Shown piece after piece: positions 3,676 to 15,890 of a stretch of DNA of 15,890 bases (within the stretch, counting starts at the first letter, position 1; the number at the start of each line of letters is the position of its first letter). Origin of the DNA: Bacteroidota bacterium (GTDB lineage: Bacteria; Bacteroidota; Bacteroidia; Bacteroidales; GCA-2748055); NCBI GenBank assembly GCA_024244665.1, contig JAAEOI010000186.1, positions 1-15,890 of the forward strand. The letters run 5' to 3'. A program made the translations under genes and the position numbers. The notes below the pieces were generated by a model. That model worked only from the letters and a program-made list of their open reading frames with translations, was not told the DNA's origin and ran no database searches.

Positions 3676-3690
3676 AAAGGAGAGAGCTTG
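3676..3690 (+). promoter_or_regulatory. Shine-Dalgarno supporting a TTG start for mutS2
   Basis: AAAGGAGAG (about 3676-3684) lies a few bases before TTG at 3688-3690. The protein read from this TTG begins with the conserved MIYPEQFEAKVGFDRIR start of Bacteroidota MutS2, so TTG rather than a later ATG is the real initiator. A strong Shine-Dalgarno is uncommon in this phylum and may offset the weak start codon. Confidence 0.7.
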
Positions 3691-6183
3691 ATATACCCCG
3701 AACAATTTGAAGCCAAGGTAGGATTCGACCGGATCCGTGATCTGGTGAAATCACACTGCCTGTTTGATCCCGGCCGAGAGCGTGTGGACCAGATGGGCTT
3801 TCTTACCGATCATGTTGAAATAGCAAGGGAGCTTGACCTGGTGGATGAGTTTATGTCTGTCCAGAGGGGTGAGGATGATTTTCCTGTGAACCATTTCATT
3901 GACAACCGGGAGGCTTTGAAAAAGGCTGAGGTTGAGGGAACCTTCCTGTTGGAGGAGGAGGTGTTCGGATTGGTGAAAAGCCTCGATTCGGTAAGGGCCA
4001 TACTCCACTTTTTCAAATCGGATGAGGAGGGAAAGTATCCTGCCCTGCAAGAGCTGTGCAAGCCGGTTAAGGTTTTTTCCTATGTACAGGATCGCATTGG
4101 CAAGGTGCTGAATAAGCACGGGAAGATACGGGACAATGCTTCGCAGGAGCTGAACCATATCCGGCGTAGTCAGCACGAGAAGCAGGGAGCAGTTTCAAAA
4201 AAACTAAATCAGGTCATGAGCAAGGCCCAGCGGGAAGGCTGGGTGGATACCGATGCAGCACCCACTTACCGAAACGACCGGCCGGTGATCCCGGTAATGG
4301 CTGGTAACAAGCGGAAGATCGGCGGACTGGTACACGATGAGTCGGCCTCCGGTAAAACGGTCTTCATTGAGCCTGCCGAGGTTGTGGAGCTCTCCAACCA
4401 GATTAAGGAGCTGGAGTATGCCGAGCGGAGAGAGATCGTCCAGATCCTGATTGCACTCACAAGCGATCTTCGTCCATACATCCCTGACCTGCTATCCACA
4501 CAGGAGTTTCTCTCCACCATCGATTTCATCCGTGCCAGGGCGCTGTTTGCCAGGAGAATTGAAGGCTGCAGGCCCAATGTAGAAAACGTTCAGCAGTTTG
4601 ACTGGAAGGAGGCGAGGCACCCGCTGCTCTACCTGGCACATAAGGCCGAACAGAAGGAGGTAGTTCCCCTCTCATTCCATCTTTCAGATAAGAACAGGAT
4701 ATTACTGATATCGGGACCCAATGCAGGTGGTAAATCGGTCTGTCTGAAAACCATCGGCTTGCTGCAGTACATGTTGCAGTGTGGCTTACTGGTGCCCTGT
4801 AAGCCCGATTCGGTATTCGGGCTCTTTGCAGGAATATTTATCGATATTGGGGATGAGCAGAGTATAGATAACGATCTGAGTACATACAGCTCCCATCTGT
4901 TAAATATGAAATATTTCCTGAAGCACGCCTCCTCAGACACACTGCTGATGATAGATGAGTTCGGGACAGGGACAGAACCCATGCTGGGAGGTGCCATTGC
5001 CGAGTCGATCCTGGAGCAGCTCAATCAGTCGGGGACCAGCGGGGTGATTACAACCCACTATACCAGCCTGAAGCATTATGCCACCTCCTCGGAGGGGATC
5101 GTGAACGGGGCCATGCTTTTTGATAACCAGAAGATGCAGCCCCTCTACCAGTTGCAGGTGGGAAAACCGGGCAGCTCCTTTGCCTTTGAAATAGCCCGGA
5201 AGATCGGTCTGCCCGAAGAGGTTCTGGAGAGTGCGTCGGAGAAGGTGGGGCAGGACCATATCGATTTCGACAAGCACCTTCGTGATATCCTGAGGGATAA
5301 GAAGTACTGGGAGAGTAAACGTCAGAAGATCCGCCAGTCGGAGAAAAAACTGGAGGAGCTGATGGGCCGGTATGAAAAGGAACTCCAGGAGAGCGAGAAG
5401 CAGCGAAAGGTAATTGTGAGGGAGGCCAAGCAGCAAGCCGATACCATGCTCTCCGGGGCCAATAAGAAGATCGAGCTGACCATCAGGGAGATACGAGAGG
5501 CGGAGGCAGAAAAGGAGAAAACCAAAGAGCTCAGGAAGGAGCTGGAGATTTTCAAAGAGAATATAGAGGTTGAGAAAGGGAATGAGGAGAAACATGTGGA
5601 GAAGCGTTTGGAGGAGATCCGGAAGCGGGGAAGCGAGCTGGAGTCCAGGAGGCCCGATCTGCGCCAGCGCTCGAAGAAGATCCTCTCCCAAAAACAGGAG
5701 AGGGAGGATCCCGAGATCCGTGTTGGCGATATGGTCCGGATCAGGGGACAGGAGGCCGCCGGTGAAGTTATAGAGTTGAAGGGGAAGAATGTAACCGTTG
5801 CCTTCGGAATTCTGAAGAGTATTACCAAGCTGGATCAGCTGGAGAAAATTCAGGGTGAAGAGGCCGGGAAGCTGAAGATAAAAACCCAGTCGAAGGTAAA
5901 ACTGGGGGATTGGGATGTAAGCACCCGACGCGCCAGGTTCCGTCCCGATATCGACCTGAGGGGAAAACGGGCTGATGAAGCCATGGAATTGGTGGTCGAT
6001 TTTATTGATGAGGCGATCATGGTGGGTGCCAGGGAGCTGCGGATCCTTCATGGGAAGGGCAACGGTATACTGCGCCAGCTGATCAGGGAATACCTGCACA
6101 CCATGGAGCTGGTGGAGTGGTACGGTGATGAGCATATTCAGAATGGGGGGGCGGGGATTACGGTTGTTAAAATGGAAGGATAA
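3688..6183 (+). CDS. mutS2: MutS2 family ATPase/endonuclease (831 aa)
   Basis: MutS2 is a MutS-like ABC-type ATPase with a C-terminal Smr nuclease domain. It has been linked to suppression of homologous recombination and, in Bacillus, to rescue of collided ribosomes. Visible here are an N-terminal clamp/core region (1-~330), Walker A GPNAGGKS (343-350), Walker B LLMIDEF (419-425), the aromatic/hairpin TTHYTSLKHYA segment after it, a long charged coiled coil (about 515-665, rich in E, K and R), a KOW-like beta-barrel segment (about 675-725, VGDMVRIRG), and the Smr domain (about 754-831) with DLRG (756-759) and HGKGNG (788-793). The mismatch-recognition domain I of MutS is absent, as expected. 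Length is close to the family's usual ~780-830. The gene is co-oriented with the upstream oxidoreductase (24-bp gap). All key motifs are present, so it should be active. Confidence 0.96.
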   Translation: MIYPEQFEAKVGFDRIRDLVKSHCLFDPGRERVDQMGFLTDHVEIARELDLVDEFMSVQRGEDDFPVNHFIDNREALKKAEVEGTFLLEEEVFGLVKSLDSVRAILHFFKSDEEGKYPALQELCKPVKVFSYVQDRIGKVLNKHGKIRDNASQELNHIRRSQHEKQGAVSKKLNQVMSKAQREGWVDTDAAPTYRNDRPVIPVMAGNKRKIGGLVHDESASGKTVFIEPAEVVELSNQIKELEYAERREIVQILIALTSDLRPYIPDLLSTQEFLSTIDFIRARALFARRIEGCRPNVENVQQFDWKEARHPLLYLAHKAEQKEVVPLSFHLSDKNRILLISGPNAGGKSVCLKTIGLLQYMLQCGLLVPCKPDSVFGLFAGIFIDIGDEQSIDNDLSTYSSHLLNMKYFLKHASSDTLLMIDEFGTGTEPMLGGAIAESILEQLNQSGTSGVITTHYTSLKHYATSSEGIVNGAMLFDNQKMQPLYQLQVGKPGSSFAFEIARKIGLPEEVLESASEKVGQDHIDFDKHLRDILRDKKYWESKRQKIRQSEKKLEELMGRYEKELQESEKQRKVIVREAKQQADTMLSGANKKIELTIREIREAEAEKEKTKELRKELEIFKENIEVEKGNEEKHVEKRLEEIRKRGSELESRRPDLRQRSKKILSQKQEREDPEIRVGDMVRIRGQEAAGEVIELKGKNVTVAFGILKSITKLDQLEKIQGEEAGKLKIKTQSKVKLGDWDVSTRRARFRPDIDLRGKRADEAMELVVDFIDEAIMVGARELRILHGKGNGILRQLIREYLHTMELVEWYGDEHIQNGGAGITVVKMEG

Positions 6184-6250: not shown

Positions 6251-7246
6251 ATGGAAGATAATTGGTTAAGGACCATAACGCCTTTTTTCCGGTTGATGAA
6301 ACTGGAGTGGATGTCCGGCCTTTCAGGCCAGAATACCATCTTCCCCTTTTATCATGTGGCTTCCGACCAGCAGCTGCCACACCTGAAGCATCTCTACCGA
6401 TACCGGAACGAGGCGCAATTTGAAAGGGATATTGAGCAGTTGCTCAGCTCCTTTGAACCCATCAGCATAACAGACTTCCTGGAGGGTGATCCAGGGCCCG
6501 GAAGTAAACGACGTATGGTTCTCTCCTTTGACGACGGACTGGCAGAGTGCCACAGCTTCATTGCACCTTTTCTCAAGAGAAAGGGAATCCCTGCTGTCTT
6601 TTTCCTGAACAACGATTTTATCGATAACCGGGGGCTCTTTTATCGGTACAAAGCAAGCATCCTGGTTGAGTATCTGCAGAATGAGCGTGCAGCACTGATT
6701 AAGGCTGCGGAATTTTTAATCATCCCTGAACAGCAGGTTAAAGATGCCATCCTGATGAGTAACCACAGGCAGATCCCGCTGCTGGATGCCCTGTCGCTCC
6801 ATGTGGGACTGGATTATGCGGTCTACCAGAGGGATCAGCCTGTCTACATGACCACTGAGCAGGTGCAGCACTTGGTAAAGCTGGGGTTTCACATGGGAGC
6901 CCACAGCATGGATCATCCCGAGTTCTTCAGGATGGAGGAGAAGAAGATGGAGGCCAATGTGAGCATGAGCATGGAAGATATCCGGAAGCGCTTTACTGTG
7001 AAACCGGCCTGCTTTGCATTTCCGTTTACAAGTGACGGGATTCCGGAGAGGGTGATCGATGAGATCCTGGCTGAGGGCATTGCCGATGTGATTTTCGGAA
7101 CGGCGGGACTGAAGAGGACAGGGAAGAGGAGATTCATCCAGCGCATTCCAATGGAGGCATATGCCATGGATGCAAAGCAGGCACTTAAAGCGGAGTACCT
7201 GGCTTATTTGTTTAAGGGGCTGATGGGTAAAAATGGATACTTTTAA
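6251..7246 (+). CDS. Polysaccharide deacetylase (NodB-homology, carbohydrate esterase 4-like) (331 aa)
   Basis: A metal-dependent deacetylase that removes acetyl groups from amino sugars or other acylated glycans. Motif 1 is LSFDDG (91-96), with D94 as the expected catalytic base and D95 as a metal ligand. Motif 2 is AHSMDHP (217-223), with metal-binding H218 and H222. CFAFPF (about 254-259) corresponds to the motif 3 strand in the divergent branch of the family found in capsule and O-antigen loci. No cleavable signal peptide or clear transmembrane segment is visible, so it probably works in the cytoplasm on a nucleotide- or lipid-linked glycan. The segment between motifs 1 and 2 (about 120 residues) is longer than in classic secreted members. 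It is 6 bp from the next gene, starting a three-gene run with an acyltransferase and a sulfotransferase. The exact glycan is unknown. Confidence 0.85.
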   Translation: MEDNWLRTITPFFRLMKLEWMSGLSGQNTIFPFYHVASDQQLPHLKHLYRYRNEAQFERDIEQLLSSFEPISITDFLEGDPGPGSKRRMVLSFDDGLAECHSFIAPFLKRKGIPAVFFLNNDFIDNRGLFYRYKASILVEYLQNERAALIKAAEFLIIPEQQVKDAILMSNHRQIPLLDALSLHVGLDYAVYQRDQPVYMTTEQVQHLVKLGFHMGAHSMDHPEFFRMEEKKMEANVSMSMEDIRKRFTVKPACFAFPFTSDGIPERVIDEILAEGIADVIFGTAGLKRTGKRRFIQRIPMEAYAMDAKQALKAEYLAYLFKGLMGKNGYF

Positions 7247-7252
7247 AAGGAT

Positions 7253-8176
7253 ATGATCAGCTATCTTCATCGAGGGCAGATTAATGAGGCACGGTGGGAC
7301 CGGGTGCTTGAATTATCCGGGTTCGAAACTGTATATGCACATGCCTGGTACCTGGATGCCTGTGCCGGGAACTGGGGGGCCCTGGTCATGGGTGAGTATG
7401 AATTTGTCATGCCGGTGGCGTTCCGGAAAAAGCTGGGATTCAGGTATGCCTATCAACCCAGGTTCTGTCAGCAGCTTGGTATCTATTCAGAAAATGAGGT
7501 GAGCCGGGAAATCCTACTGCTTTTTCTGCACGAACTGAAGAAAAGATTCAGCTTCGGTGATTATGCCTTCAACGAAGGAAATCTGATTGGGGAGGCAGAC
7601 GGTTTCGGATTTACACACAATTCCAACTACACACTTCAGCTGAACTCAGCATACGGGGAGCTGCAAAAAGGGTATTCCAGCAATTGCAAAAGAAATGTAC
7701 GGAAGGCTGTGGTCGCGGGTCTTGAATTCTCCGATGAAATCAGTATCAGTGATCTGGTGAATCTGAAAAAACAGCATGATCACCATGTGCAGCAGGAAGA
7801 TCACTACCGCAGGCTGACTGAAATGTTTTCCGGACTGGAAGAGAAGGGAAAGGTGAAGGCCTGTGGTGTGAAGCTGGAGGGGCAACTCAGTGCGGGAGCC
7901 ATTTTTGCCTTTTCCGGCAAAAGGGTGCATTACCTGCTCTCGGTGTCCAGCGGGGAAGGTAAAGAGAAAAGTGGAATGTTCCTGGTGATCGACCGGTTCA
8001 TGAAGATACATGCGGGTAATGCCATATGTCTTGATTTTGAGGGATCCAATATCCCATCCATCGCACGTTTTTTTACTGGTTTTGGAGCAGTCCCAAACCA
8101 ATACCTGCGCATTGGCCTGAATCCCCTGGCCGGGAAGATTATCAAAGGAGTTAAAAGTATCTTGGATCATGACTGA
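7253..8176 (+). CDS. FemAB/GNAT-fold N-acyltransferase-like protein (307 aa)
   Basis: The pattern is that of the FemAB-like / Bacteroidota GNAT acyltransferases used on cell-surface glycans and peptidoglycan-like acceptors. An N-terminal half starts with an aromatic WYLD segment (residues 32-35). It is followed by a conserved acceptor/cofactor region around YSSNCKRNVRKAVVAGLEF (about 140-159), then a C-terminal GNAT core with GAIFAFSGKRVHYLLSVSS (about 216-234), LDFEGSN (about 262-268) and FFTGFGA (about 273-279). No signal peptide or membrane segment is visible. The acyl donor (acyl-CoA or aminoacyl-tRNA) cannot be told. It lies 6 bp after the deacetylase and overlaps the sulfotransferase start by 8 bp, so the three are almost certainly translated together. 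A likely role is re-acylating the amine exposed by the deacetylase, which is inference. Confidence 0.75.
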   Translation: MISYLHRGQINEARWDRVLELSGFETVYAHAWYLDACAGNWGALVMGEYEFVMPVAFRKKLGFRYAYQPRFCQQLGIYSENEVSREILLLFLHELKKRFSFGDYAFNEGNLIGEADGFGFTHNSNYTLQLNSAYGELQKGYSSNCKRNVRKAVVAGLEFSDEISISDLVNLKKQHDHHVQQEDHYRRLTEMFSGLEEKGKVKACGVKLEGQLSAGAIFAFSGKRVHYLLSVSSGEGKEKSGMFLVIDRFMKIHAGNAICLDFEGSNIPSIARFFTGFGAVPNQYLRIGLNPLAGKIIKGVKSILDHD

Positions 8177-9047
8177 GTTTAAGGTGAATACACTGATCAT
8201 CGGTGCAGGCCGGTCGGGTACCACCAGCCTTTTTTCCTACATGGAAGCTCACGCCGAGGTATGCTTTTCATACATCAAGGAGGTTCACTATTTCTCAATT
8301 GGCGATCTATACAAAAAAGGGGTGGGATACTATCACTCATTCTTCAAAAAGTGTAATGATGCGCATGTAATTGCCTCGGCCGATACCTACCTGTTAATGG
8401 ACCATAATGCCATTTCACGCATCCATGCCTACAATCCTGAGATGAAAATCATTGTGATGTTGCGCGATCCGGTTGCAAGGGCGTACTCGTCCTACAACTA
8501 CTCGGTGAATTACGGGCATCATAAGCCCTACGGTGCATTCCTGGATTCCATTGATGTGGAGAGGGATATTGAGAATGAGAGAAACATTGTTACCCGAAAT
8601 AATGCGGGGCACTTCCACGGGAGCCTCTACCATAAGCACCTGAGTAAGTGGGCAGAGCAGTTTCCCAGGGAGCAACTCCTGCTGCTTGAAACCAGGGAGC
8701 TCAGGGAGTCGTCGCAGATCTTATCAGAGAAGCTTGCCGCCTTTTTGAACCTGTCATATTTTGAGGGTGAGATTGAGAGGGTAAATGCAACTGCTGTGCC
8801 TAAAAACAGGAAGCTGGAAAAGTTCCTGCTTGACAGGGATGGTTTTTTGAGGAGGATGATTCGCAGTCTGACCCCGCGTTTTATCAAGAACCTGGTTATG
8901 GGATCGGGTCTTGTAGACAGGTTGCACGATGCAAACCGTGTGGAGCAAGCGGTCACCCCATTGTCAAAGGAAGAGGCCGAAAAGGCGATGCTCTTCTTTA
9001 AGGATGATCTTCAACTTCTGAAAGAGGAGTTTAACATAGAACTTTAA
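8169..9047 (+). CDS. PAPS-dependent sulfotransferase (292 aa)
   Basis: Transfers sulfate from 3'-phosphoadenosine 5'-phosphosulfate to a hydroxyl or amine. The 5'-phosphosulfate loop is IIGAGRSGTTSL (residues 10-21). The 3'-phosphate-binding motif is LRDPVARAYSSYNY (98-111), with R99 and S107 in the expected R-x7-S spacing. A later segment (about residues 150-180), with YHKHLSKW and EQLLLLETREL, is typical of the carbohydrate/heparan-type sulfotransferase fold. There is no signal peptide, so it is cytoplasmic. The ATG lies inside the 3' end of the acyltransferase gene (8-bp overlap), the tightest coupling in this run, and a small hairpin begins right at its stop. With a deacetylase and an acyltransferase alongside, the acceptor is probably the same glycan or glycolipid. 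Confidence 0.9.
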   Translation: MTEFKVNTLIIGAGRSGTTSLFSYMEAHAEVCFSYIKEVHYFSIGDLYKKGVGYYHSFFKKCNDAHVIASADTYLLMDHNAISRIHAYNPEMKIIVMLRDPVARAYSSYNYSVNYGHHKPYGAFLDSIDVERDIENERNIVTRNNAGHFHGSLYHKHLSKWAEQFPREQLLLLETRELRESSQILSEKLAAFLNLSYFEGEIERVNATAVPKNRKLEKFLLDRDGFLRRMIRSLTPRFIKNLVMGSGLVDRLHDANRVEQAVTPLSKEEAEKAMLFFKDDLQLLKEEFNIEL

Positions 9048-9335: not shown

Positions 9336-9422
9336 AAGTAGAATGAGGCGATGGATTTAGGTTAGCTACAGATATAAACAAACTTCCCAGACTAACATTG
9401 TTGACGGTTATGACATATCCTT

Positions 9423-10295
9423 ATGAATGGCGATGAATTCAAACTGGTCCATGACAGGCTGCTCGCGAATGATGAGGAGGCCTGGTCGGATATTAAATCC
9501 CATATGGGGATCATGATATCCAGCCTGGCAAGAAAGGAGAAGATTGAACTAGCCTGGATTGCTTCAGATAACAGAGTACTGGAGGGCAGGAATGTGCAGT
9601 TTGAGGTTTGTTCCCGGTTTAGAGCGGAGTTAATATCCGGGCGTATTGCAGTAGATTGTTTTGCCGATTATAAGGAAGTAGTTGGTACATATTCGAGAGA
9701 AGTTCTGGCAGAATGGTTCGCAAACTTCTACCAGGATTTGAAGAATAACAATGGCCTGGCCTGGAAGAAAGTGAATGAAAGGCTTCATATTTATGCTGCC
9801 AAATGGCTTTCAGAGCGGAGTGTTAATTCCGGGTTTGCAAAGGATATCTTTCAGGAATCAGTCATAACATTGTGCGAGAAAGTGCTTGGGAACAATCTCA
9901 AATTTGAGACATCCAGGGAGCTGAAATCCTATTACTTCAGGATTCTTGAACTAAAGGTCATGGAGTATTACAGGAAGGTCCAGGGGCACAGGCAAAAGTA
10001 TTCTGACTCTGATTTGGATCATTTGGACATGCCATTCCTTGAAGAAGGTTTTGAATTGGATGACAAATATTTCTATATTGAAAAGATCATGATTAACACC
10101 ATTTCGAAGGAGGAATACCATATTTTAAAACGGTACTATTTCCATGGTGATAAGCTAAAGAGCATAGCCAGGTCACTCAAGATTTCGGATCTTAACTGTC
10201 GACAGAAAAAGCATCAGGCCCTCAGAAAGATTGCTTCAGTTTATGAGAAAATTGAAGCGCAAAAGAAAGATAGCAGACGTATTTATGTATTATGA
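9423..10295 (+). CDS. Sigma-70 family (ECF-like) RNA polymerase sigma factor with an apparent second region-2-like segment (290 aa)
   Basis: Residues 110-186 read as sigma region 2: AWKKVNERLHIYAAKWLSER (113-132), the polymerase-contacting DIFQESVITLCEK (141-153), and LKSYYFRILELKVMEYYRK (167-185), the -10 recognition helix. Residues 228-272 are region 4 (EEYHILKRYYFHGDKLKSIA, then LKISDLNCRQKKHQALRKI), with the helix-turn-helix that reads the -35 box. The extra N-terminal ~105 residues look like a diverged second region 2: ANDEEAWSDIKSHMG (15-29), then FEVCSRFRAELISGRI (60-75) and VDCFADYKEVVG (77-88). ECF sigmas are usually 160-200 residues, so 290 is long. The stop overlaps the anti-sigma start by 4 bp (ATGA), so the two are translationally coupled. 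It probably drives its own operon in response to an envelope signal (inference). The duplication is judged by eye. Confidence 0.8.
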   Translation: MNGDEFKLVHDRLLANDEEAWSDIKSHMGIMISSLARKEKIELAWIASDNRVLEGRNVQFEVCSRFRAELISGRIAVDCFADYKEVVGTYSREVLAEWFANFYQDLKNNNGLAWKKVNERLHIYAAKWLSERSVNSGFAKDIFQESVITLCEKVLGNNLKFETSRELKSYYFRILELKVMEYYRKVQGHRQKYSDSDLDHLDMPFLEEGFELDDKYFYIEKIMINTISKEEYHILKRYYFHGDKLKSIARSLKISDLNCRQKKHQALRKIASVYEKIEAQKKDSRRIYVL

Positions 10296-11077
10296 ACATA
10301 AGAATGGATCGCGACCATATACATAAGAACAAGGATCTAGTGATAGATAGCTATATCCGGAATGAGTTATCGGAGGTGGATGCAGATTCCTTCGAGGAGC
10401 ACTTATTGTACTGCAAAGAGTGCCGGGATGCGCTATTGATGAGAGAGAGGATAGCCGGCTCCATACAGAATCTGGCTGCAAAAGAGAATCTGCAGGGCCA
10501 AATCGATTTCCGGCATCGTTCAAGGAAGCAGAAAGTATTGATAGGACTTTTTGCTGCTGCTGCAGGGGTAGCTCTGGTGTTGGGAATTTTCCATGTATCA
10601 AACAGGGATATTCCTTCTGGATTATCAAAGAACATGGCCATGGATACCGTTTTAAACACCCTTCAAAACCCTGAAGCAAAAGGAGAGGAGATGGAGGTGC
10701 TTTCTGAATCCATTGAAGTCGATTTAGGTGAATTACCGGAAGATAGGAGGTCGTATCTGGCCAGTTGTCAGCCTAATCCTATCTACGAAAACCAAATTGG
10801 AATCCACCTGAGGTCTGGCAATTTGCAAGTGCTTTCTCCACCTGATAGTGTGGAACGCTATGTTGGCTCTTTTATCGAAGTACAATACCAGGCCCCCCAA
10901 TTGGATTCCCTCTTCCTGGTGCTTCTGAATCGTCATGGGGAGATCCTGAGTGAGGAAAAAATTGCCTCGCCTCATGAACTTATACTGCATGTTCAGGCAG
11001 GACTATATTATTGGCAGCTGACCGATAACGAAGAGCTATTGCATACGGCAAAAATCTATGTCAGACCACCTCGGTGA
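10292..11077 (+). CDS. Transmembrane anti-sigma factor with zinc-finger (zf-HC2-type) domain (261 aa)
   Basis: The cytosolic N-terminus carries an anti-sigma zinc motif: H37-x3-C41-x2-C44 (EEHLLYCKEC), with an upstream histidine (H9 or H11) as a likely fourth ligand. One transmembrane helix follows at about 82-102 (VLIGLFAAAAGVALVLGIFH). The periplasmic part has a low-complexity linker and then a beta-rich domain (about 160-261) beginning PNPIYENQIG, with LQVLSPP, FIEVQYQ, LDSLFLVLLNRHGEIL and LYYWQLTDNEELLHTAKIYV. This tail resembles those of other Bacteroidota anti-sigma proteins and may be the sensor. It presumably sequesters the sigma factor encoded 4 bp overlapping upstream and releases it on an envelope signal or after proteolysis. 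An alternative start at 10304 (MDRDHIH) is possible but would lose the ATGA coupling. Confidence 0.82.
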   Translation: MNIRMDRDHIHKNKDLVIDSYIRNELSEVDADSFEEHLLYCKECRDALLMRERIAGSIQNLAAKENLQGQIDFRHRSRKQKVLIGLFAAAAGVALVLGIFHVSNRDIPSGLSKNMAMDTVLNTLQNPEAKGEEMEVLSESIEVDLGELPEDRRSYLASCQPNPIYENQIGIHLRSGNLQVLSPPDSVERYVGSFIEVQYQAPQLDSLFLVLLNRHGEILSEEKIASPHELILHVQAGLYYWQLTDNEELLHTAKIYVRPPR

Positions 11078-11238
11078 TAATTACAGGTACATAGTTTTGG
11101 ACCCTGACTAATACCTCGAAATTATTATTCGGGGGCTTCTTAGCGGGCGCTTTTTATGGGGGACTTTCATAACGTTTTCAATTTCCGTGTCATTTCAGAA
11201 TTAAACAGCTGAAACAAGGACCAAAAAACCGAAGCCTT

Positions 11239-11895
11239 ATGAATCAAATCAAAACTACCCTTTCATACATTCCTGGATATTTGTATGTTGTTTGCTTTCT
11301 GGGAGCCATGTCCCTGAATGTCAACGCTCAAGAAAGCAGAGGCAAGCACCAGTTTCTCATGTACCTGACGGCCCCTACAATGACTTTTCTCGATGAAGAC
11401 AGATCTGCAGATCTGAATATTGGGGATGTTGCATGGACTATGGAAGTTGGTGTACAAAGCAAATTGTATGGTTTGGTTGGGATCTCGGGATCCTTGGGCT
11501 ATGGAGGTGTAAAAGATCACAATAGTTTTACGCAAAGTACCACCTGGGGTACGCTTGAATCGTCCTTCACCACTTTGACTTACGATTTTAGTACTGGGAT
11601 ATGGTCCCCCTTATGGTATTTGAACGGGCAGGATGGCCTCAGTTTTACCGGTGGATTATCCCTGGGATATGAGGGTATATCCGGACGGCGCGAGATTGTG
11701 AATTGCGACAACTGTGATGTTGAAAAGTACAGTTTCAATGGAGGGTTTTTCCTTGAACCTGAGTTAAGTTTCTACTTTCTGCAGGATCTGGTGGGTGTGG
11801 GGACTTCCTACCGCTACTTCTTCGGAGATACTGATTTGAATGGCAGTTGGACAATTTTGAAGCTGTTGGTCCGCTTCGATTTACTTAATCGCTAA
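11239..11895 (+). CDS. Secreted outer-membrane beta-barrel-like protein (218 aa)
   Basis: It has an N-terminal signal peptide (about 1-30, hydrophobic YLYVVCFLGAMSLNVNA with probable cleavage before QES). The remaining ~188 residues form repeated amphipathic strands: QFLMYLTAPTMTF, WTMEVGVQSKLYGLVGIS, LESSFTTLTYDFSTGI, FTGGLSLGYEG, FFLEPELSFYFLQD and the last strand WTILKLLVRFDL. Length and pattern fit an 8-10-stranded barrel of the OmpA/opacity type. It carries a CDNCD pair of cysteines (in the middle of an outer loop) that might form a disulfide. It lies 161 bp after the anti-sigma gene and 11 bp before a second barrel gene. A function beyond the envelope cannot be assigned. Confidence 0.65.
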   Translation: MNQIKTTLSYIPGYLYVVCFLGAMSLNVNAQESRGKHQFLMYLTAPTMTFLDEDRSADLNIGDVAWTMEVGVQSKLYGLVGISGSLGYGGVKDHNSFTQSTTWGTLESSFTTLTYDFSTGIWSPLWYLNGQDGLSFTGGLSLGYEGISGRREIVNCDNCDVEKYSFNGGFFLEPELSFYFLQDLVGVGTSYRYFFGDTDLNGSWTILKLLVRFDLLNR

Positions 11896-11906
11896 ACCTG
11901 TGCTTT

Positions 11907-12479
11907 ATGAAACACAACTTTATTTCAGGGTTCTTGTTAGTGGCATGCATAAGTCTGCAAGCCCAGGATGGGAAACAGTCAGTTCCATTTCAGACCAATA
12001 GTCCCATCGATAAGATTTCCATTGGCCTTGGTGTTGGATTGGATTATGGAGGTATAGGAGGAAACCTTAGTTTCTATCCGGTACAAAGTTTAGGAATATT
12101 CGGAGGAGCGGGATATGCACTGGCCGGTGTTGGTGTTAATGGGGGGCTGAAATACAGGTATATTCCGAAGAAACCCGATGCCAGGGTACGTCCATATGCG
12201 CTGGCCATGTATGGCTACAATGCAGCGATTGCAGTTCTAAATGCCTACCAGTATAACAAGCTGTTTTATGGTCCCACCCTGGGAGCCGGTGTTGATATCA
12301 TGCGGAAGTCGATGAGAAGAGGATACTGGTCCTTGGCAGTTTTAGTGCCCTTCAGAGGTGATGAGGTGAATGACTATATCGAGGATCTGGAAAATAGTCA
12401 CGGCGCAGATTTCAGCAACTCCCTATTACCCGTTACAATCACCCTTGGATACAAATACATAATACACCTTATGAAATGA
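11907..12479 (+). CDS. Secreted outer-membrane beta-barrel-like protein (190 aa)
   Basis: It has a short signal peptide (MKHNFISGFLLVACISLQA, cleaved before QDG). The mature part is rich in glycine and short amphipathic strands: ISIGLGVGLDYGGIGGNLSF, LGIFGGAGYALAGVGVNGGL, KYRYIP, RPYALAMYGYNAAIAV, YGPTLGAGVDIM, YWSLAVLVPF and the C-terminal VTITLGYKYIIHL. This is the pattern of a small outer-membrane barrel. It starts 11 bp after the preceding barrel gene and its TGA overlaps the next ATG (ATGA, 4 bp), so the run is one operon. The protein could be part of the signal the anti-sigma factor monitors, or an output of the sigma regulon. I do not recognise a named family. Confidence 0.65.
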   Translation: MKHNFISGFLLVACISLQAQDGKQSVPFQTNSPIDKISIGLGVGLDYGGIGGNLSFYPVQSLGIFGGAGYALAGVGVNGGLKYRYIPKKPDARVRPYALAMYGYNAAIAVLNAYQYNKLFYGPTLGAGVDIMRKSMRRGYWSLAVLVPFRGDEVNDYIEDLENSHGADFSNSLLPVTITLGYKYIIHLMK

Positions 12480-13459
12480 GAAAATCAATATTACTATTCT
12501 GCTGTGTCACCCTCCTGATGACCTCAGCTTGTTCCAGCAATAAATTCATCGTCAGTTCATATCCTGAGGGTGCATACATTGTGGGATATGGAGAAACAGG
12601 CCAGGATCAATCAATTGAAGGGACCTACATGTTTATGGGCAAATCGGATAGTTATGACTTCATCGCTATGAAAAGAGGCTACCTTTCTGATACCGTAACC
12701 GTTACCAAAAGCTCTCCTTCTGAGGTACACATTGAACTCAAGCCCATGGAGGGCATTCCCCCACTTATCCGGAAACCGATGGAGCTGGATATGAAGAATG
12801 CCAATCTTCTCCCGGTCAATGTTGAAATTGTTCTGCACAAGGGAGTCGGGAATCTGGACAAATACGTGAAATCGGATGAATTATCAAAGGAAGCCCGCCT
12901 TGAAATGAATCAAGAGCTGCAAGACATACAATCGGACACCAGCATCTGCATGCTCAGTATTACAGAACATCCTGACTGGCCTGCTGCTTCTTCCGAACTG
13001 GAGGCCTATCTGCAATCGCTCTCTACTGAATTACTGCCCTACTATCCTGAGGCACCATCAGTGTCCAGGATATTTGCAAAGTACCCACAACTCTTTGCAA
13101 GCATACAGGATCTGCTCAAACAACCGAGAGAAGCGGAGCTGATTGTGTATGCCTGGTGTAAGAGTGTTAAACCTACCACGGGCAGAATCATTGGAAATAT
13201 CAGTGCTACTGTAGCTGGAGGAGTGGTATCGGGCTACGAGACTGCCATGTACGGATACCCGGTAACATATTCCGATCCCAGTGCCTTTAGACTGGATAAC
13301 AGCACTATTTTTGCCGCTTACATTATTGATCCTGTTTCTGGCGAGATTATAGATACCAGACAATTTGTAGTCCCCTATGACATCACAAAAACAGACCGGG
13401 TTCACATGTTAGCCAAGTCGATCATCATGTTCCCAAGAGCTAAATCAAATTCTGACTAA
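12476..13459 (+). CDS. Lipoprotein with N-terminal PEGA-like domain (327 aa)
   Basis: The start MRKSILLFCCVTLLMTSAC has a lipobox-like TSAC with lipidated C19. It is followed by CSSNK, so it is a probable membrane-anchored lipoprotein. Residues ~22-92 resemble a PEGA domain: FIVSSYPEGAYIVG, a YMFMGKSDSYDF strand, KRGYLSDTVTVT and VHIELKP. The central part (about 105-225) is helical and unrecognised. The C-terminal part has glycine-rich strands (IIGNISATVAGGVVSGYETA, about 238-257) and AAYIIDPVSGEIIDTRQFVV (about 281-300), a pattern seen in several outer-membrane-associated lipoproteins. It is coupled to both neighbours: 4-bp overlap upstream and 1-bp overlap (TAATG) downstream. The role is unknown; a periplasmic scaffold for the barrel proteins is a guess. 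Confidence 0.65.
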   Translation: MRKSILLFCCVTLLMTSACSSNKFIVSSYPEGAYIVGYGETGQDQSIEGTYMFMGKSDSYDFIAMKRGYLSDTVTVTKSSPSEVHIELKPMEGIPPLIRKPMELDMKNANLLPVNVEIVLHKGVGNLDKYVKSDELSKEARLEMNQELQDIQSDTSICMLSITEHPDWPAASSELEAYLQSLSTELLPYYPEAPSVSRIFAKYPQLFASIQDLLKQPREAELIVYAWCKSVKPTTGRIIGNISATVAGGVVSGYETAMYGYPVTYSDPSAFRLDNSTIFAAYIIDPVSGEIIDTRQFVVPYDITKTDRVHMLAKSIIMFPRAKSNSD

Positions 13460-13758
13460 TGAAAGCAATCCTGATCCTGGTCATTTCCTTTCTTTGTACT
13501 CAAATCCTTTGTGGACAACATCGAGATGGAAATATACAGAAGAACTATTTGTTTGTTCAACTGAATCCTCACCTTGAGAAGAGAGGTACCGATGAGAACC
13601 AAACTTCGAATCCGGATTTTGCACTGGCCTATGAACGGGATATTACTGGTATCGGCGATCACCGTTTCTAATCCGGGATAAGGCTCGGAGCTTACTTTTT
13701 ATTCGATCCAAGAGCATACATGGCAAAGGCAGGAATCAGGGTTGGGTACAGATTTTGA
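13459..13758 (+). pseudogene. Third beta-barrel-like secreted protein gene, interrupted by an in-frame stop and probably internally shortened
   Basis: The ATG at 13459 overlaps the lipoprotein stop by one base. It opens a signal peptide (MKAILILVISFLCTQILCG) and a first barrel-like segment to DHRF, where TAA (13669-13671) ends the frame at 70 codons. In the same frame reading continues for 28 more codons to a TGA at 13756-13758: GIRLGAYFLFDPRAY, then AGIRVGYRF, whose final aromatic strand is the usual C-terminus of outer-membrane barrels. So a full barrel end survives behind one stop codon. Even together it is only about 98 residues, about half the length of the two sister barrel proteins, so an internal deletion is likely too. 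The same-frame continuation is seen directly. Decay is the simplest reading; a short secreted 70-residue protein is the alternative. Confidence 0.6.
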
Positions 13759-13759
13759 A

Positions 13760-15890
13760 TTAATGCCCTATCAGAACGAAGGTGCCCCAGGTGGCTGGAA
13801 AAGCAGTGGAGGGATCCTCAATTGCCAGGAGTTTAGCTGTTCTCAAAGCTCTTGAGTAAGACTCACCCGATAGTACCTCCCCATAAAAGTCAAACATGAA
13901 CTTGGCGGTTGTTTTGTCGTTCACCTTCCAATACGAGATAAGCACATTTGGAACCCCGGCAAATGTAAGTCCCCTTACAAAGGATAACAAACCTTCTCCC
14001 TTAACAAGTTTGCCGGCGCCGGTTTCGCACGCGCTAAGTGTGACCAGGTCGGCATTCAGATCAAGCTTGTACATCTCTTTGGTATAGAGTACTCCGTCGT
14101 CATTTTTCTCCGCTATCAGTAACTGCGGAACATCCTTGGTCTGAGTGCTGGTATCTTTCCAGAAGACCAGTCCCGACAATTCAGGTTTCTCCGGATTCAT
14201 CAGGCCATGGGTAGCGATATGAATATACTTGAAGCTTCCGGACAGCTCTCTGAAATTTGCTTCTGTAGCATGTTCCATTAACAATGCCTCACTCCGGTCG
14301 CCCTCTTCAGCGAACATGGCTGCCAACTTCTCAACCTCATGCCTGGAATAGGGCAGTCCTTTCAGGGACATCCTGTCTACCACCTTTCTTTCGGCATAGA
14401 TCAGGGAATCTGAGTCCCTGGCAATACCATCGGACCTGATGATCAGGGTATCAAAAACCGGAGCCATCCCCAGGAAGGTTTTTTTACCAGGCGCCTCATT
14501 GTTTGTCATGCTTTTTTGTTTAGACCTGACCCATAAGTCGGTGGAATAGTGGGATAGGGTTTCAAAACGTTTAATAAAGAAATCAAGTTCCGATAGGTCA
14601 GAAAGCCCCTTGCCTGCTTCCTCGCATATCAATACATCCAGGGGGAGCAGCAGCAGATAGCTTTCAGGAATGGTGATGATTCGTTCGATCCCTTCAAAAT
14701 ATTTTTCGAGGGGATGGATCAAAGCTTGGGAAATCTCGTGTGACAGGCTAAGGTAATTGTGGATCTGATACTTTTTCAACGCCTGAAGCAGATCATAGAT
14801 GCGCACTTCAAAATTGGCCGGTACTTTCAGGTGCTCGATCCAATGACCATTTTTTCCAATTATGATGGCGTGAATTGCTGAATCGCTCACGACAAAATCC
14901 AGCAGGAGGCTTCCGGGATCCATGAGCCTGGTAATATCTTCCGGAGAATAATCGGGATACCTGGATCGAAGACTATTGTAATCGGGATACTCCTTTTCAA
15001 GGGTCAGCAGCAGGGAATTCAATTCGATTGCAGTCTGGTTGATTTGGCTGTTAATTTGCTCAGATTCAAAGAGCCTGGCCGAATCCCCCTCCAGCTCCAG
15101 CAGGCTCTGCCTCAAGCCTTCCAGGGTGGTACGAAGAGACTCTTCCTGTAGAACTTGTTTTTCGGGGATTCCTGAATTTTTCATGGCCTGACTGGCCAGG
15201 ATGGCATCAGTCAGTGCAGATGCCTTTTTCAGGCCTGCGAAGCGAAAGGCCTTAGAAAAATAGATCTCATTTCCGGTAATTTCATATAGTGCTGCAGCGG
15301 TTTCAAATCCATCGGCGTAAAGGTAATTCCATTGCTGTAGTGCATATAATCTTGATTTCTCAAATCTGTAGCTTTCTCTGAGCTTGATGGACAGATCTGC
15401 GATAAGTTCGTAGATCACCAGGTTATGCTTGTGTAGTTCTTCGACCGTGGGGAAGGATAGATATTCCTTGTTATAAGAAATAAGTGTGGCCAGGATTTCT
15501 ATAAAAAGGTTTCCATCTTTCAGCTTTGCCGGATCAATTGTACCTGGTGAACTCAGATCGACTTCGCCAAAATAATTTACCGCGAGACCTTTGTGTAAAT
15601 ACTTCAGGCCCTGGTCAATCTCTCCTTTTTTAGCCAGCAACTTTCCATACCTGGTATAGTCAATAGCCAGGTCGGGGTCCTTGAGCCCGGACAACTCTTC
15701 CCGGATAAGAATGGCCTTTTCCAGGTACTCCATGGACTTATCTAAACTATCCAATTCATAATAGTCCCAGGCCATATTTGCATAGATGGAGGGTACCAGC
15801 CAGTTCTTTTCTCCATAAGCTTCCACCTGTATGGAAAGGGCTTTCTTGTTATAGGAAGATGATTCTTCAAATCTGCCAAGCTCTGAGACC
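13760..15890 (-). CDS. TPR-CHAT protein (caspase-like protease domain), N-terminus outside window
   Basis: The minus-strand frame runs from the TAA at 13760-13762 to the window edge with no stop (about 710 codons; an internal GTG at 15826 is not the true start). The upstream part has tetratricopeptide-like helical repeats (for example ANMAWDYYELDSLDKSMEYL and YGKLLAKKGEIDQGLKYLHK), then a long helical linker. The C-terminal CHAT domain carries both caspase-like catalytic residues: His in YIHIATHG (codon 14207-14209) and Cys in LSACETG (codon 14027-14029), followed by the conserved GEGLLSFVRGLTFAGV and SYWKVND segments and ending TWGTFVLIG. CHAT domains are cysteine proteases of the caspase clan, and TPRs serve as sensing or substrate-binding arms. 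The gene converges on the sigma/anti-sigma/barrel operon with one base between stop codons. Any signal peptide would lie outside the window. Substrate unknown. Confidence 0.92.
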   Translation of the reverse strand, partial: VSELGRFEESSSYNKKALSIQVEAYGEKNWLVPSIYANMAWDYYELDSLDKSMEYLEKAILIREELSGLKDPDLAIDYTRYGKLLAKKGEIDQGLKYLHKGLAVNYFGEVDLSSPGTIDPAKLKDGNLFIEILATLISYNKEYLSFPTVEELHKHNLVIYELIADLSIKLRESYRFEKSRLYALQQWNYLYADGFETAAALYEITGNEIYFSKAFRFAGLKKASALTDAILASQAMKNSGIPEKQVLQEESLRTTLEGLRQSLLELEGDSARLFESEQINSQINQTAIELNSLLLTLEKEYPDYNSLRSRYPDYSPEDITRLMDPGSLLLDFVVSDSAIHAIIIGKNGHWIEHLKVPANFEVRIYDLLQALKKYQIHNYLSLSHEISQALIHPLEKYFEGIERIITIPESYLLLLPLDVLICEEAGKGLSDLSELDFFIKRFETLSHYSTDLWVRSKQKSMTNNEAPGKKTFLGMAPVFDTLIIRSDGIARDSDSLIYAERKVVDRMSLKGLPYSRHEVEKLAAMFAEEGDRSEALLMEHATEANFRELSGSFKYIHIATHGLMNPEKPELSGLVFWKDTSTQTKDVPQLLIAEKNDDGVLYTKEMYKLDLNADLVTLSACETGAGKLVKGEGLLSFVRGLTFAGVPNVLISYWKVNDKTTAKFMFDFYGEVLSGESYSRALRTAKLLAIEDPSTAFPATWGTFVLIGH

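Follow-up and report, generated by a model that had tools for sequence, protein, structure and literature searches.

A sigma/anti-sigma pair and a convergent TPR-CHAT gene in a Bacteroidales contig: a candidate protease-gated envelope switch

The stretch of DNA analysed here, hereafter the window, comprises positions 1 to 15,890 of contig JAAEOI010000186.1 of a Bacteroidota bacterium (assembly GCA_024244665.1), in whose right-hand part an ECF (extracytoplasmic function)-like sigma factor gene is followed by the genes of a membrane anti-sigma factor and of several envelope proteins, with a TPR-CHAT gene converging on that run. The sigma/anti-sigma pair very probably forms an autoregulated envelope switch, to which the CHAT protein is likely to be functionally coupled; the sequence comparisons described below lend good support to the pair and its promoters, to the conservation of the pair, and to its coupling with CHAT, while cleavage of the anti-sigma factor by CHAT is a possibility suggested by analogy. 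A preliminary description of the locus had already proposed a protease-gated transcription switch. All the genes that it named—sigma, anti-sigma, two small exported proteins, a lipoprotein, a decayed gene, and the convergent TPR-CHAT—do exist; and its general idea is favoured by a conserved neighbourhood, by the possibility that CHAT and the anti-sigma meet, and by an envelope-type promoter pattern, but not in the part concerning suicide or defence.

The sigma/anti-sigma pair and its predicted promoter

The two genes of the pair overlap by 4 nucleotides. Regions 2 and 4, which define an ECF sigma factor, were both found in the first product, whose matches to Sigma70_r4 (E 1.8e-4, 21.4 bits, below the cut-off of 24.1) and to TIGR02937 (E 2.1e-10, 40.5, below the cut-off of 42.9) were subthreshold; its AlphaFold2 model (pLDDT 85), when submitted to Foldseek, had sigma factors among the matches listed, the best E being 1.2e-3 and no match reaching 0.001. 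The N-terminal extension (window 9423-9760) is weakly similar to region 2, the profile comparison scoring 20.07 where the highest of 60 column shuffles reached 19.45 (E 0.006, probability 6%), and a duplication of region 2 is possible there. A protein search returned 27 sigma and 33 anti-sigma homologues beyond those of the window itself, two of which (P0015 and P0056, a sigma and an anti-sigma) are sourced as a Methanosarcinaceae archaeon metagenome-assembled genome (MAG), the contig having probably been binned into the wrong genome. Sigma factors with the long N-terminus are rare: the centre genome alone carried one among 295 genomes of one order and among 28 of one family, as against five among the 23 genomes of another family; and among 395 genomes of the class the centre genome alone had a near full-length match, 36 others giving partial ones. 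A plasmid search with the sigma gave zero matches.

The anti-sigma factor matches zf-HC2 with 28.1 bits, which value exceeds the cut-off, and residues H37, C41, and C44 of its HxxxCxxC zinc motif are invariant across 37 sequences, as expected for a zinc-binding anti-sigma factor (ZAS). The protein has a single hydrophobic helix and an Ig-like C-terminal domain, the predicted topology thus being that of an RseA-type single-pass anti-sigma with an exported C-terminal domain. The zinc-finger part should lie in the cytoplasm, because basic residues stand before the helix, and the Ig-like part in the periplasm, which assignments were drawn from hydropathy and charge alone. In the structural model the pLDDT was below 50 over residues 67-148, the membrane helix included.

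From all the upstream regions we read by eye a common promoter pattern, TAAY-N17-CATHTC, which has 16 matches in eight loci (104 kb), while the other 22 spacers (8-30) total 58, with a mean of 2.6. Twelve of the 16 occupy expected places (six before sigma, five before envelope genes, and one before a BNR-repeat protein of locus L001); the remaining four look like chance matches. All six window-type loci have the sigma promoter. In two of them, L003 and L004, it falls within the 5' portion of the longest open reading frame (ORF) for sigma, a later ATG being there taken as the start. In five loci an envelope gene has such a promoter too. With a leave-one-genome-out matrix, which test kept the spacing and the chosen columns, the top positions lay ahead of sigma in every one of the six loci and, in five, ahead of the envelope genes too; in the window, with its own sites left out, 11170..11196 scored first and 9393..9419 second of all positions on both strands. 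The pair is thus predicted to have the autoregulated promoter of ECF/ZAS systems, and the sites before sigma and the envelope genes fit the envelope response that the preliminary description had put forward. A genome-wide regulon built on this pattern was dropped, since 112 matches in six whole genomes versus 77 for a reversed control were too weak for targets outside the locus. The BNR/PSII_BNR-repeat exported protein of L001 (17250-19625), whose gene adjoins CHAT, has a weak secretion-tail match and its predicted sigma promoter at 17178.

None of the five CHAT upstream regions carried a promoter site (the highest score was 1.5, with the 95% point of the background at 3.8), because of which CHAT looks like an input to the switch rather than an output; a housekeeping-type TTG-N17-22-TAnnTTTG was found before one of the five CHATs, and in 29 of 1000 background windows. 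This absence bears upon the suicide or defence response also contemplated in the preliminary description, wherein CHAT would be the effector, an exported protease induced or licensed by the sigma response and harming an invader or the cell itself. In its favour, the CHAT domain belongs to the caspase clan, and defence by type III-E CRISPR does involve a TPR-CHAT protease (PMC10028731); but in addition to the missing promoter, the predicted sigma targets at these loci are sigma itself and envelope or exported proteins, PADLOC gave nothing better than an E of 0.0036 (the next being 0.0062), and the 15.9-kb window has no CRISPR-like array, only a single 23-nucleotide direct repeat pair, just as the preliminary description had remarked. 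We therefore find the suicide or defence response unsupported and an effector role of CHAT highly improbable.

The TPR-CHAT partner and its linkage to sigma genes

The window CHAT protein matches PF12770 with an E of 9.1e-52 and contains TPRs; the His and the Cys previously noted in it are conserved in all 39 of the CHATs that we selected and aligned. Signal-peptide-like hydrophobic N-termini occur in all five window-clade CHATs with a readable start, such as the 1216-residue homologue in L001 (13277-16927), which call is by hydropathy only, the N-terminus of the window CHAT itself lying outside the window. CHAT is probably exported, and probably shares a compartment with the Ig-like domain of the anti-sigma; since both CHAT and that C-terminal domain are predicted beyond the inner membrane, the two can meet, so that the contact between CHAT and an operon product presupposed in the preliminary description is possible. 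The window CHAT clade comprises six tree rows (support 100/97), which have no C-terminal helix. Against the Protein Data Bank a CHAT-only profile retrieved six sequences named 'CHAT domain protein' or 'CHAT domain-containing protein' (E 1.3e-4 to 9.8e-4); entries 8d9h, 7x8a, and similar ones we take to be Csx29.

The neighbourhood whose conservation the preliminary description had named as a check is indeed conserved. A scan of species genomes turned up five loci, each in a Bacteroidales or Bacteroidetes MAG. Six genomes possess the long-N sigma, and in four of them (L001, L002, L004, L005) the closest CHAT homologue converges on the pair within a single contig; in the fifth (G003), L003 stops inside the anti-sigma gene while the CHAT gene (L056), near a contig start, adjoins an anti-sigma 3' end, and the convergent arrangement holds across the contig break by inference. 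In five of the six, the convergent CHAT is the whole-genome best match of the window CHAT. The order in L001 is sigma, anti-sigma, barrel1, barrel2, an intact third protein, and the convergent CHAT, without the lipoprotein; in L002, L004, and L005 the convergent CHAT comes directly after the anti-sigma. Divergently upstream of sigma lie the lipoprotein in L002, or barrel1, the lipoprotein, and the third protein in L005, the set being replaced in L004 (409-1620) by a PQQ_2/BamB-type beta-propeller protein; L003 carries the lipoprotein and barrel1. A sigma promoter stands at position 1701 of L004, at the PQQ_2/BamB-type gene.

The pairing is not confined to window-type loci. CHAT genes, either TPR-CHAT or other, occurred in at least 48 of the 149 genomes sampled class-wide and in 59 of the 118 sampled phylum-wide. 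Most of the other CHATs fetched from the window-type genomes face an ECF sigma, usually via an anti-sigma-like gene with a hydrophobic helix, no sigma being seen in the short stretches of L059 and L061. Among 70 class regions—author-chosen, non-random, one to three per genome, from at least 139 places in 48 genomes—18 had a sigma within 2.2 kb (13 convergent, three on the same strand, and two divergent) and 52 had none, two further divergent sigmas lying at 3.8 kb; the sigma profile was built on 36 sigma ORFs, which sigmas of divergent sequence may escape. Forty control regions (636 kb, taken from the 21 genomes that have long contigs among the 48) held two sigma genes, none within 1 kb outside the mock gene and one (L200) inside it, which density predicts 0.93 sigma-linked regions versus the 18 observed (P 1.8e-17, a rough value in view of the few control sigmas and the related rows; the CHAT genes are mutually related, and the P values carry no phylogenetic correction). 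A C-terminal hydrophobic helix is present in 15 of those 18 CHATs, as against 11 of the other 52 (Fisher P 4.6e-6). In the G004 family, where 41 CHAT places were listed, 29 are convergent with a sigma, one is divergent, one is on the same strand, and 10 have no sigma within 2.5 kb, among which L169 has an anti-sigma 3' end alongside; the resulting 29 sigmas on the 3' side versus two on the 5' side serve as an internal control. A universal CHAT-sigma pairing was rejected, there being no sigma in 37 of the 39 rows of one large CHAT clade or in the 52 class regions just mentioned, and a single sigma facing the 28 CHATs of the phylum-wide set. The CHAT gene of L146 is in two pieces of 1007 and 115 residues in different frames, either a broken gene or a sequence error.

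So strong an orientation bias might mean that the linkage is one of arrangement only, the tail-to-tail genes regulating each other by antisense transcription or collision while the proteins make no contact; such an idea is also invited by 12 loci that do not belong to the window clade (L125, L128, L142, L158-L161, L164, L168, L171, L172, and L174), where the converging genes of anti-sigma and CHAT overlap by 9-37 nucleotides. The linkage is kept, however, in the window and in L001 despite gaps of 2.7 and 2.0 kb, respectively, with envelope genes between anti-sigma and CHAT, and we give the arrangement explanation very little credence.

A tentative mechanism, its alternatives, and related systems

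The model that we tentatively propose is a self-activating envelope sigma switch gated by a periplasmic TPR-CHAT protease. At rest, the cytoplasmic zinc-finger domain of the membrane anti-sigma would tether sigma to the inner membrane. The exported TPR-CHAT would be the signal-side component, whose TPRs would sense an envelope cue and whose CHAT domain would cut the periplasmic part of the anti-sigma in the fashion of a site-1 protease; general proteases would then complete the breakdown and free the sigma, which factor would switch on its own operon together with that of the exported proteins and the lipoprotein through the common promoter. That CHAT cleaves the anti-sigma is conceivable, if somewhat short of probable, because Csx29, a TPR-CHAT protein, cuts a sigma-factor inhibitor, its locus having sigma sites as well, and because the regulated proteolysis of a membrane anti-sigma in DegS-RseA shows a like logic at the membrane (both as described in excerpts of PMC10028731). 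Still more doubtful is the generalization that exported TPR-CHATs are the site-1 proteases of recurrent Bacteroidales ECF switches, with convergent sigma/(anti-sigma) and CHAT, of which the window would be the long-sigma, Ig-domain variant.

Several results weigh against the proposed switch. Conservation in the anti-sigma linker is 0.42 versus 0.66-0.71 elsewhere in the protein, and residues 100-163 have zero invariant columns. The sixth long-N-sigma genome (G722) has the pair, near the left end of a contig without CHAT, and a CHAT fragment elsewhere; the promoter matrix found no site at its sigma (L049) or at the divergent gene of L003, and in the six whole genomes the pattern is only mildly commoner than its reversed control. 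Of the best-scoring 28 phylum-wide CHATs, in stretches mostly of 1.3-1.5 kb, one faces a sigma; L332 is a G001 window-type CHAT with its sigma beyond the stretch, at L331 166 nucleotides are available, and the gene opposite L321 is anti-sigma-like, no sigma being detected there. Finally, among the 29 convergent CHATs of the G004 family an anti-sigma candidate stands beside the sigma in 17 and in 12 there is none (L277, L279, L281, L289, L290, L292, L294, L298, L300, L302, L305, and L170), that is, no same-strand ORF of 100-600 residues starting from 80 nucleotides before to 120 after the sigma end; L298 was counted here, its sole qualifying ORF, of 103 residues, lying within the CHAT span. All 12 of these CHATs carry a C-terminal hydrophobic helix, and CHAT itself may there stand in for the anti-sigma; because these loci have no anti-sigma candidate, they suggest that CHAT is linked to the sigma pathway as such.

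The variable linker is compatible with another role for a coupled CHAT, namely that of a quality-control protease cutting an envelope protein of the regulon, or a foreign one, while sigma senses by other means. Envelope genes do lie near the pair (barrel1 and barrel2 in L001, the lipoprotein in L002, the lipoprotein and barrel1 in L003 and L005), in five loci one such gene has the promoter of sigma in common with it, and their products are expected on CHAT's side of the membrane. L004 nonetheless has none of these envelope proteins, and a scan of about 1.5 kb on each side of the remaining sigma-linked CHATs in these genomes revealed no homologues of them. Sigma is the more constant partner, and we consider the quality-control role unlikely. 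TPRs, moreover, are binding modules, and the window-clade CHAT might be a non-catalytic scaffold or sensor whose TPRs bind the anti-sigma and release sigma uncut; the anti-sigma of L172, in the wider module, has weak C-terminal TPR matches below the curated cut-offs. The conservation of His and Cys in every aligned CHAT speaks against such a scaffold, which we deem quite unlikely.

Against this background, the proposed switch can be compared with known systems, as these are presented in the excerpts of the papers cited. The type III-E CASP system (Csx29, Csx30, and CASP-sigma) resembles the window in its TPR-CHAT with His and Cys near a sigma and an inhibitor, and in the sigma sites of the locus (PMC10028731). 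Its protease, however, is cytoplasmic and part of an RNA-guided effector complex, against which stand the signal-peptide-like N-termini found here; the inhibitor here has zf-HC2 and a hydrophobic helix; and the predicted targets here are envelope genes. Because the window holds neither the array nor a Cas-like Pfam match among its scanned proteins, and thus lacks the Cas7-11 and array of that family, we do not place the locus in it, and Csx29 is a functional analogue of the window CHAT without common family membership. RseA/DegS shares the ECF-type sigma, the single-pass anti-sigma with an exported domain, the envelope response, and a first cut that is here proposed to be likewise extracytoplasmic (PMC10028731), but here the candidate protease is a caspase-clan TPR-CHAT and the exported domain is Ig-like. 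The excerpt on ECF54 describes a context of carboxypeptidase, subtilase, and CHAT proteins with no anti-sigma, and proposes the proteases as ECF controllers (PMC8999054); the 12 G004-family loci without an anti-sigma candidate resemble that group, whereas the window, with its zf-HC2 anti-sigma and long sigma N-terminus, is distinguished by description. The EACC2/caspase systems, which are linked to genes for an ECF sigma and a TPR protein and for which a transcriptional role is proposed, also bring a caspase-like domain, an ECF sigma, and a TPR protein into one neighbourhood, but have a separate TPR protein (DUF1822) along with EACC2 and TRADD-N components, and neither CHAT nor a zinc-type anti-sigma is named for them in the excerpt of PMC8195603. 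Classical ZAS/ECF pairs have in common with the window the zf-HC2, the overlapping genes, the hydrophobic helix, and the predicted autoregulation, to which the window adds the N-terminal sigma domain, the Ig-like C-terminal domain, and the CHAT partner. CalpL, a Lon-type protease of type III CRISPR, reportedly acts on an anti-sigma upon an RNA/second-messenger trigger; the protease/anti-sigma pairing is alike, but the protease family differs from CHAT.

In the literature searched, as far as the excerpts extend, the CRISPR papers and the remarks on ECF54 (PMC8999054) and on EACC2/caspase/ECF (PMC8195603) were the only ones relevant to a CHAT/anti-sigma link, and a role for the CHAT protein is shown for the CRISPR-associated Csx29 only and proposed for ECF54 (PMC10028731, PMC8999054). 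If the sigma-paired CHATs are signal proteases, then signalling at the bacterial envelope involves proteases of the caspase clan, and the switch would be their periplasmic equivalent of DegS-RseA; a partner as well as a test of cleavage would follow directly, and the predicted promoter would be a ready reporter.

Window layout and the small exported proteins

Features of the locus in the window, with coordinates and predicted properties
Feature	Position	Strand	Remarks
Predicted sigma-dependent promoter of the sigma/anti-sigma operon	9393..9419	+	TAAC-N17-CATATC; leave-one-genome-out matrix
ECF-like sigma factor, 290 aa	9423..10295	+	Helical N-terminal extension of ~110 residues, region 2, region 4
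Membrane anti-sigma factor	10292..11077	+	zf-HC2, one hydrophobic helix, linker, Ig-like C-terminal domain
Predicted membrane helix of the anti-sigma, residues 81-102	10532..10597	+	Hydropathy 2.64; helix in model; basic residues before it
Predicted unstructured linker of the anti-sigma, residues 103-148	10598..10735	+	Presumably periplasmic; hypothetical cleavage region
Predicted sigma-dependent promoter ahead of the envelope genes	11170..11196	+	TAAC-N17-CATTTC; leave-out matrix
Exported protein 'barrel1'	11239..11895	+	Homologues in L001, L003, L005
Exported protein 'barrel2'	11907..12479	+	Homologue in L001
Lipoprotein	12476..13459	+	Lipobox-like TSAC (by eye); homologues in L002, L003, L005
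Remnant of third exported-protein gene	13459..13759	+	70 codons, stop, then C-terminal tail only
TPR-CHAT protease gene, convergent	13760..15890	-	PF12770 and TPRs; N-terminus past the window end

Upstream of the locus are the genes of a MutS2/Smr protein (3688-6183), a polysaccharide deacetylase (6251-7246), and a sulfotransferase (8169-9047), with no indication that they belong to the module; Rfam gave zero matches in the window.

For barrel1, barrel2, and the lipoprotein there were zero Pfam matches at E <= 1. The genes themselves are present and their homologues recur in the related loci, while the terms 'barrel' and 'PEGA-like' of the preliminary description stay as descriptive labels only. 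The decayed gene that it placed in the same run is corroborated by intact relatives of 180 residues in L001 and 182 in L005, the 70 codons of the remnant matching the N-terminus of the L001 protein.

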